A stretch of 48,905 bases of DNA. It comes from Parcubacteria group bacterium. Its GTDB lineage: Bacteria; Patescibacteriota; Minisyncoccia; Portnoybacterales; UBA2143. Positions 35,059 to 36,330 of this stretch are shown here, piece after piece. The notes beneath the pieces were generated by a model. It was not told the DNA's origin. It saw nothing but the letters and a program-made list of their open reading frames with translations, and made no database searches. The position numbers and the translations under genes were made by a program. Numbering within the stretch: position 1 is the first letter of the stretch; each line of letters starts with the position of its first letter. The DNA is taken from the NCBI GenBank assembly GCA_002685955.1, contig NYYU01000047.1, positions 1 through 48,905 of the forward strand. Reading direction: 5' to 3'.

Positions 35059-35121
35059 ATTTTAATTATACCACCGAAAATAAAAATCTCCCAATCAAGG
35101 GGAGGTTTTTATCTCATCTGG

Positions 35122-35197
35122 CGGGGATGATGGGATTTGAACCCATGATCTCCTGCGTGACAAGCAGGCGCATTGGACCGGACTATGCTACATCCCC
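35122..35197 (-). tRNA. tRNA-Asp(GTC)
   Basis: Reverse complement GGGGATG...CCTGC-TTGTCAC-GCAGG...TTCAAAT...CATCCCC. Confidence 0.92.
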
Positions 35198-35204
35198 ATT
35201 TCAG

Positions 35205-35277
35205 TAGCGGCGGAGGGATTTGAACCCCCGACCCATCGGTTATGATCCGATCGCTCTAACCACTGAGCTACGCCGCC
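35205..35277 (-). tRNA. tRNA-Met(CAT), probably elongator
   Basis: Reverse complement GGCGGCGTAGCTCAGTGGTTAGAGC...ATCGG-ATCATAA-CCGAT...GGGGG-TTCAAAT-CCCTC-CGCCGCT. Confidence 0.88.
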
Positions 35278-35287
35278 ATTTTAATTA

Positions 35288-35971
35288 TTAATACTTTTTT
35301 CTTTGTGCAAGAGCATTAATTAATCCATGAATTTTGTGTTGTAAATCTGAGCTTTTACGTATTCTTATATGTAAAGTTCCGTAATAATTATCGTGATTTT
35401 TATAGATTTTTTTATTTTTAACTTTTCTTAAAGTAACTTTGGTAAATTGATTTTCTGGAATATTAGTTATTCTTGACCAATATTTTTCTACTTTTTTGAC
35501 TCTATTTTTATGTATCTGATTTATACCTACGTGTAACGATAATCTTTTTTTATCAATATTTAATATATTTTTAAACCAGAATATTATAAATTTTATCATT
35601 TTTGGATCAGAGTTTCCAAAGCCAGAAATATGCCATTTTCTATTTCCTTCGCCCCAATATAATGCTATTCCAGCTATTAATATATCTTTTCTGCTTAATT
35701 TTTTAATTTGATCAAACCCTTCTTTTTCAAGCTCTTTTACTTTTTTTAAATATTTCTTTCTTTGTATTTTAGCTCCTTTTATTCTTCCTTTGTATCCTCC
35801 CTTCAGTTGTTTTTCATCGAGTAGCGCTATCTGATTTCTTGTGAGTTGAATATCTCTACACCAAATACTTACACTGCTTTTTGATACCTTAAGTTTTTTA
35901 GCAATTTCCTTTATGCTTTGTCCTTTCTGACGTAATCCTCTAGCTTTAATTTTCTCTTTAAATTTTGCCAT
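35288..35971 (-). CDS. HTH protein with LAGLIDADG-reminiscent C-terminal domain (possible free-standing homing endonuclease)
   Basis: HTH KGQSIKEIAKKLKVSKSSVSIWCRDI; DILIAGIALYWGEGNRKWHISGFGNSDPKMIKFIIFWFKNIL; strong SD TAGGAGGTTTATTTATG. Confidence 0.55.
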   Translation of the reverse strand: MAKFKEKIKARGLRQKGQSIKEIAKKLKVSKSSVSIWCRDIQLTRNQIALLDEKQLKGGYKGRIKGAKIQRKKYLKKVKELEKEGFDQIKKLSRKDILIAGIALYWGEGNRKWHISGFGNSDPKMIKFIIFWFKNILNIDKKRLSLHVGINQIHKNRVKKVEKYWSRITNIPENQFTKVTLRKVKNKKIYKNHDNYYGTLHIRIRKSSDLQHKIHGLINALAQRKKY

Positions 35972-35976
35972 AAATA

Positions 35977-36031
35977 AACCTCCTATTATTAGATATATTT
36001 ATATTATACAGGAGGTTCGAAAATTATTCAA
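35977..36031 (-). promoter_or_regulatory. SD-sequestering inverted repeat with promoter in its loop
   Basis: AACCTCCT (36017-36010)...AGGAGGTT (35984-35977); -35 TTGAAT 36031-36026, 17-bp spacer, -10 TATAAT 36008-36003. Confidence 0.65.
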
Positions 36032-36053
36032 TTGTTAACTGTGCATAATTTTG

Positions 36054-36330
36054 TTGCGGGGGCCGGATTCGAACCGGCAACCTCGAGGTTCATGCATATT
36101 AACCATTTGTTTCCGAATGGATTGGACCATACCATCTACCTAATTAATATATTAGGCAGTTCCCATTATGGCCTCTGAACCTTGTCACCTAAGGCGACCT
36201 TGGCTGCTGATTACCGAGAATTAATCCTAACGGCTTCCCAGCAGTTTAGAGAATTTTTCCACAAAATGTTACCATTCTGGGCCACAATTTAACTTATGGG
36301 CCTCGCGAGCTTCCATTGCTCCACCCCGCC
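36054..36330 (-). tRNA. Initiator tRNA-fMet(CAT) interrupted by a group I intron
   Basis: 5' exon GGCGGGGTGGAGCAATGGAAGCTCGCGAGGCCCAT; 3' exon AACCTCGAGGTTGCCGGTTCGAATCCGGCCCCCGCAA; mismatched 1:72 (G:A) as expected for an initiator. Confidence 0.88.
36091..36295 (-). other. Group I self-splicing intron (about 205 nt, tRNA type)
   Basis: 5' splice after U36 with P1 CCAU/GUGG including U-G; Q-like AATCAGCAGCCAAG; R-like GTTCAGAGGCCATAATGGG; S-like AGATGGTATGGTCCAAT; P9 hairpin CCATT...AATGG; terminal omega-G. Confidence 0.88.

Follow-up and report, generated by a model that had tools for sequence, protein, structure and literature searches.

The DNA analysed here is a 48,905-nucleotide contig of a Parcubacteria group bacterium (GenBank assembly GCA_002685955.1, contig NYYU01000047.1), the whole of which is referred to below as the window. 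On its minus strand an intact open reading frame (ORF), starting with an ATG at position 35971, lies between an initiator tRNA gene (tRNA-fMet) that is split by a group I intron and an elongator tRNA-Met gene. The whole split initiator tRNA runs from 36330 to 36053 (-), with exon boundaries that were read off the sequence, and aragorn -i run on L001 (L numbers denote loci and G numbers genomes throughout) put the gene at 278 nt, of which 205 nt are intron. An earlier note, made from the letters alone, had put the start of the ORF ~83 bp downstream of the tRNA-fMet 3' end; the distance was measured as 81-83 bp, and all coordinates of that note (ORF, Shine-Dalgarno (SD) sequence, complementary arm, -10 and -35 boxes) were reproduced. 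By sequence comparison, the ORF is a member of an unnamed and undescribed family of the ultra-small bacteria of the Patescibacteria, of which no description was found in open-access papers.

Members of the family were identified in 83 of 294 Patescibacteria genomes (~28%), with up to 9 copies per genome, several copies being truncated or interrupted by stops. The family set comprised 78 distinct ORFs (alignment A1), and a same-strand tRNA gene was found at -30 to +30 bp of the stop codon in 66 of these. In 37 of the 78 the 3' end of the ORF overlapped the tRNA, the stop codon very often being U8-A9-G10 of that tRNA, while the remaining 12 homologues without a tRNA gene at the stop lay within ~230 bp of a whole or fragmentary tRNA gene or of a tandem copy. 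A phylum-wide set of 29 loci, which was largely independent (3 of the 29 overlap the 78-ORF set), contained 24 loci adjoining a tRNA gene, and 4 of the 5 others lay near a tRNA or tRNA fragment; adjacency in 24 of 29 has a probability of ~1e-27 if adjacency is assumed for 5% of genes, a ceiling that we estimated ourselves from a genome of ~900 genes and ~45 tRNAs. A TAG stop made from U8-A9-G10 of the downstream tRNA was seen in L007, L024, L026-L029, L031, L034 and others, and at L047/L070 and at L058 two divergent tandem copies stand in a row 5' of one tRNA-Lys gene.

The same slot as in the window, in the order fMet-ORF-Met-Asp, is held by homologues at 46-57% identity, and more distant homologues adjoin other tRNA genes. 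The intron-bearing tRNA had been regarded as the key neighbour of the ORF, whereas the fixed neighbour proved to be the downstream tRNA gene; an intron-bearing fMet as fixed partner was rejected, as loci that retain the downstream tRNA may have an inverted fMet gene, one without an intron or none at all. No homologues were found in phage and plasmid collections (tblastn) or in a first viral scan. A second viral scan returned two, L318 and L319, on IMG/VR contigs of 497 and 372 kb, and the homologue on a huge viral contig is situated inside a tRNA cluster, between tRNA-Asn and tRNA-Glu genes. The features of the locus in the window are collected in Table 1.

Table 1. Features of the tRNA-fMet/ORF/tRNA-Met locus (positions in the window)
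Feature	Position	Strand	Basis
tRNA-fMet 5' exon, ending ...CCCAU after anticodon position 36	36296..36330	-	sequence
Group I intron, 205 nt, in fMet anticodon loop	36091..36295	-	Rfam RF00028, 66.7 bits, E 8.6e-17
tRNA-fMet 3' exon (AACCTCG...GGTTCGAATCC...CCCGCAAC)	36053..36090	-	sequence; partial tRNA match in Rfam
Sigma-70-type promoter, TTGAAT-17-TATAAT	36003..36031	-	TTGA and TATAAT kept in L003 and L009
Putative operator, left arm GAACCTCCT, preceded by TC (TCGAAC), inside the -35/-10 spacer	36010..36018	-	inverted repeat, recurs in homologues
Putative operator, right arm AGGAGGTTT, doubling here as Shine-Dalgarno	35976..35984	-	L009 keeps AAGGTTC without SD
227-aa protein with helix-turn-helix and YWGEG domain, putative tRNA-targeting homing endonuclease/autorepressor	35288..35971	-	
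Helix-turn-helix, residues 5-40	35852..35959	-	Pfam HTH_23/HTH_7 matches
YWGEG motif, residues 105-109	35645..35659	-	Y105, E108, G109 invariant in 78 homologues; aligns with I-DmoI LYVAEG
Elongator tRNA-Met, the conserved neighbour, 10 bp 3' of the ORF stop	35204..35277	-	
tRNA-Asp, closing gene of the fMet-Met-Asp cluster	35119..35197	-	

It was observed that the protein clades follow the isotype of the downstream tRNA (Met, Gln, Lys, Arg, Ile, Gly or Asn), with 25 changes of downstream isotype on the protein tree compared to 68 in shuffles, none of 200 shuffles being as low. The isotype clades cross many host families, and copies from several clades coexist in single genomes. In the sister genomes G001, G003, G007 and G008 the fMet-Met site is empty, with spacers of 5-21 bp and no ORF between the two tRNA genes, so the window ORF is an insertion into a tRNA spacer; it is a feature of homing endonuclease genes that they occur sporadically and that their locus is found empty in other genomes. 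Scars consisting of tRNA 3' ends that start at the T-loop were found near 6 loci (L006, L032, L036, L038, L043 and L057). These tRNA 3' ends are 15-21 nt long, some are inverted, and they resemble traces of breakage or insertion.

As a control, Pfam LAGLIDADG genes of the same class were checked for their placement. LAGLIDADG_1 genes of this class had no tRNA-adjacent placement, and the only tRNAs nearby were tRNA-Ile/Ala, as is expected for rRNA operons. Several free-standing ORFs above the cut-off of LAGLIDADG_3 (PF14528), on the other hand, lay directly 5' of, or overlapped, tRNA genes for His, Tyr, Asp, Cys and Leu, the fMet-Met-Asp cluster being among the sites. They constitute a second tRNA-adjacent homing gene family in Patescibacteria, and that they share the tRNA niche is the best indirect evidence we have for placing the window family among genes of the homing type. 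Free-standing LAGLIDADG_3 loci next to a tRNA gene were L246, L248, L249, L251, L253, L254, L256, L259 and L260.

Introns were present in 15 of 28 fMet genes accompanied by a Met-clade ORF compared to about 11 of 100 fMet genes without one (Fisher test, 6e-6, uncorrected for relatedness; 7e-5 when every doubtful intron call was counted), as determined with an fMet pattern search in which genomes with odd fMet genes were missed. In the Asn clade, too, introns occurred in most of the downstream tRNA genes, including the one beside a paralogue in the same genome as the window ORF (L002), while no intron was detected next to the Gln, Lys, Arg, Ile and Gly clades. The earlier note had proposed a free-standing homing endonuclease that mobilises the tRNA intron or its own locus, and had suggested that co-occurrence of intron and ORF be examined. 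Co-occurrence took the form of enrichment in the Met clade and presence in the Asn clade, most other clades having none; the empty sister sites, the LAGLIDADG_3 genes in the same niche and the fMet intron enrichment beside the Met clade favour a gene of the homing type attached to its own locus, whereas the intron is not its fixed partner. The paralogue L002 (G000:C49, ORF 1486-2157 +) lies directly 5' of its intron-bearing tRNA, which ARAGORN called as Thr(TGT) and of which the spliced loop reads Asn(GTT). The fMet genes of G025 and G145 (L219 and L221) are split elsewhere, between GGCTC and GATTCCG, by ~700 nt, a second kind of fMet insertion.

The helix-turn-helix (HTH) predicted for the N-terminus was borne out, as 65 of the 78 members matched PF13384 at E<=0.1. 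The DILIAGIALYWGEG stretch, which had been described as reminiscent of LAGLIDADG, contains 3 of the family's 7 invariant residues (Y105, E108 and G109). A profile search of PDB sequences with alignment A1 gave a short match to I-DmoI (E=3.9e-4) which placed LYWAEGSK on LYVAEGDK in register and fell on the second motif of I-DmoI, the family pattern being Y-x-x-E-G. No curated LAGLIDADG family was matched above cut-off in Pfam, NCBIfam or PHROGs, where matches were to HTH families or sub-threshold, and neither PADLOC nor a PDB sequence search identified LAGLIDADG directly; profile-profile comparison with LAGLIDADG_1 gave an alignment that was out of register and was rejected. The AlphaFold2 model was confident (pLDDT 95.4 for the full length, 93.7 for the C-terminal domain). 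No LAGLIDADG protein was among the listed Foldseek PDB matches, of which the best had a TM score below 0.45, and the order of elements assigned by DSSP (alpha-beta-alpha-beta-alpha-beta-beta-alpha) differed from that of the LAGLIDADG fold (alpha-beta-beta-alpha-beta-beta-alpha). The in-register I-DmoI match makes an affinity of the family with LAGLIDADG suggestive; the confident model did not confirm the fold.

Upstream of the ORF, AACCTCCT (36017-36010) is perfectly complementary to the SD sequence AGGAGGTT (35984-35977). A promoter spans the left arm, with TTGAAT (36031-36026) separated by 17 bp from TATAAT (36008-36003) and 10 of 12 consensus matches, so that the consensus -10 box does lie in the loop between the arms as had been claimed, and no terminator-like site was found between tRNA-fMet and the ORF. 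The upstream RNA folds in the manner that the earlier note described (minimum free energy -17 kcal/mol, z=-2.15), with 4 of 200 shuffles equally good; on its own the RNA fold of the window is modest and, since it beats shuffles by so little, leaves the matter undecided. Of shuffled upstream regions, 1% produced a perfect 8-bp arm that overlaps the SD, and it is the recurrence of the repeat in homologues that places it clearly beyond chance.

Homologues repeat the layout of GAAC at -50 to -40, TATAAT just after it and GTTC just before the ATG, as an inverted repeat TYGAAC...GTTCRA with an outer span of ~42 bp around the -10 box. An inverted repeat was significant (p<=0.05) in 28 of 81 upstream regions, and GAAC..GTTC pairs with an outer span of 40-44 bp occurred in 13 cases, compared to a mean of 0.3 and a maximum of 3 in 200 shuffles. 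Inner arm bases co-vary (CCTCC/GGAGG, CCACG/CGTGG, CTACG/CGTAG, CAACG/CGTTG), and where pairing has decayed (L011, L048, L053, L066 and L077) the GAAC/GTTC cores and the span persist. AGGAGG occurs 3 times in the 81 upstream regions; L009 keeps GAACCT..AAGGTTC without any SD, and L025, L050 and others also have no SD in the arm. The homologue on the viral contig has GAACCC..GGGTTT before its ATG, with a 42-bp span counted by eye. Because the cores and the ~42-bp span outlast a broken stem, a DNA operator is indicated, and because the cores are conserved and the span is near-fixed, a dimer operator overlapping the promoter would fit; judged on these patterns, the repeat appears to serve a dimer in autorepression, as its operator, rather than mainly to form a hairpin that sequesters the ribosome-binding site (RBS). 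An RNA stem that pairs with the SD and has the promoter inside the hairpin was found in the window and L003; in nearly all other homologues the arm contains no SD. RBS sequestration, put forward earlier by analogy with I-TevI, is therefore not the conserved function of the repeat, as the SD is absent from the right arm in most homologues, and of that analogy the putative autorepressor-operator half survives; in addition to the operator, read-through RNA may fold so as to hide the region of the start.

The motif TYGAAC was found in 23 of 35 cases against a background of 16% (p 9e-11, the homologues not being independent). Its reverse complement, GTTCRA, is the universal T-loop box of tRNA genes, a match that was noticed after the fact. 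Counted from the T-loop GTTC (C56), the intron site lies 20 nt back in fMet of the window and 21 nt back in tRNA-Asn at L013, a distance equal to half of the operator span (20-22 bp). The whole 42-bp palindrome was also sought inside tRNA genes, where no second half-site was visible by eye on the D-arm side, and any T-loop-based target must for this reason be asymmetric.

We consider it moderately probable that this is a family of tRNA-gene-specific, self-repressed, free-standing, homing-endonuclease-like proteins, putative nucleases that would work together with tRNA introns in two clades. The N-terminal HTH would bind the half-site GTTCRA, equal to the T-loop box, while the C-terminal YWxEG domain would make the dimer and would probably cut. 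The gene, positioned directly 5' of a tRNA gene, would spread into empty tRNA loci by break-induced copying, as suggested by the empty sites, the isotype-specific clades, the sporadic presence and the decaying copies. The conserved cores and near-fixed spacing suggest that the dimer represses its own gene at a palindromic operator which brackets the -10 box and mimics the T-loop half-site, and the group I intron that often interrupts the adjoining tRNA gene in the Met and Asn clades may protect that gene, in the manner of collaborative homing. A more tentative extension is that a dimer of a tRNA-isotype-specific nuclease with one half-site on the T-loop box (positions 53-58) would have its centre ~21 bp away, at the anticodon, which matches the intron sites (after position 36 in fMet and after 35 in Asn); the anticodon introns could then be hitchhiking immunity alleles, and the operator a decoy tRNA half-site that shuts the gene off at protein excess.

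A number of results weigh against the homing interpretation. Foldseek detected no nuclease fold among PDB structures or viral models with either the full-length protein or the C-terminal domain, and profile-profile comparison with LAGLIDADG_3 (PF14528) was in register and weak (3% probability, P=0.014; positive control 95%); membership of the LAGLIDADG group is not claimed on account of both. The tracking of isotype by clade could also result if the gene was inherited vertically from early on and lost many times. An intact intronless fMet, which an fMet-cutting enzyme would have to spare, is present at about half of the ORF-bearing loci. A strict operator was recognisable in only about a third of upstream regions, and the similarity of its arms to the neighbouring tRNA stem reached just p ~0.05 (0.048), a value at which the idea that the arms copy the adjacent tRNA T-stem was rejected.

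The clear HTH, the conserved operator-like repeat over the gene's own promoter, its probable co-transcription with the tRNAs (there being no terminator-like site between them) and the missing nuclease fold match would all suit a domesticated or never-selfish HTH autorepressor of its tRNA operon, with T-loop boxes as binding sites and no nuclease activity. Such a regulator is nevertheless unlikely in view of the patchy presence, the several isotype-specific copies per genome, the broken or truncated copies and empty sister sites, the true homing genes in the same niche, and the invariant acidic E108-G109 in the LAGLIDADG-like motif. Still less probable is a site-specific element of the transposase or recombinase kind that carries out its own strand transfer to insert 5' of tRNA genes, in place of repair-based homing. 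Its HTH resembles those of resolvases and transposases (HTH_7, Sleeping Beauty PAI), tRNA genes are classic integration sites and partial tRNA 3' ends are repeated near some loci; however, no transposase catalytic domain was matched, NCBIfam matches being N-terminal only and far below cut-off, no terminal repeats or target duplications were recognised, and insertion is 5' of the tRNA, with an isotype that differs by clade, whereas integrases use the 3' end.

The mechanism of the earlier note, in which RNA read through from the tRNA folds the SD away while RNA from the internal promoter is made without the blocking arm, is compatible with a homing gene but appears doubtful. It is exact in the window and L003, with the -10 box in the loop, and T4 homing genes including segB use such hairpins (PMC2988022); as the stem extends to the start codon in several homologues, hiding of the start site could even be general. 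The rarity of AGGAGG, the homologues without an SD in the arm and the GAAC/GTTC cores and spacing that outlast lost inner pairs all speak against it. That the closeness of ORF, intron and tRNA is chance or simple old synteny is scarcely credible: the fMet-Met-Asp order is ancestral in the taxonomic order, but the isotype clades occupy different loci that nearly all adjoin a tRNA gene, at the frequency found in the phylum-wide set, and the intron enrichment, uncorrected for relatedness, is likewise difficult to reconcile with an ordinary neighbour.

To our knowledge, the homing genes dedicated to tRNA genes have so far been isolated examples from phages (SegB). If the homing interpretation is correct, an isotype-partitioned, phylum-wide family would help to explain the abundant tRNA introns in the reduced genomes of Patescibacteria. 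Its members would be a natural collection of DNA-binding proteins specific for tRNA genes, and the idea that an operator can copy its target could be tested on them. The overlap of 37 of the 78 ORFs with a tRNA creates a conflict between the reading frame and tRNA 5' processing, since RNase P cleavage of a transcript in which the ORF runs into the tRNA would strip the stop codon and leave a nonstop mRNA.

Among known systems, SegB of phage T4 is a free-standing GIY-YIG homing endonuclease encoded between tRNA-Arg and tRNA-Ile (PMC2988022). Like segB, which promotes inheritance of the tRNA region, the window ORF is a free-standing gene in a tRNA cluster with its own promoter; unlike the phage-borne, single case of segB, it has no GIY-YIG match, and its family is bacterial, spread across the phylum and divided into isotype-specific clades. 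The I-TevI protein of the same phage is an intron-encoded GIY-YIG homing endonuclease and autorepressor, and in T4 hairpin and operator coexist (PMC2988022). A promoter inside an inverted repeat or hairpin is shared with I-TevI, as would be an operator that resembles the homing site and overlaps the promoter, whereas the gene described here is free-standing, with T-loop-like half-sites arranged as a spaced palindrome in its putative operator. F-CphI, an enzyme with an Endo VII motif and demonstrated cleavage, performs collaborative homing (PMC6083498); here too a free-standing gene adjoins an intron-bearing gene, a putative target that the intron could protect, although the link to introns extends to two clades only and cleavage by the family is putative. 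LAGLIDADG enzymes are represented in rRNA introns of the Candidate Phyla Radiation by I-ShaI (PMC11270868). With LAGLIDADG enzymes the family shares GxALYWAEGxK, which aligns with GLYVAEGDK of I-DmoI, and the tRNA-adjacent niche of LAGLIDADG_3 genes, but it differs from them in lacking a Pfam match and a significant fold match, in its weak profile-profile score and in its extra N-terminal HTH and long helix. The family is not filed as LAGLIDADG, and would work most like SegB combined with an operator of the I-TevI kind and, in two clades, cooperation of the F-CphI type.
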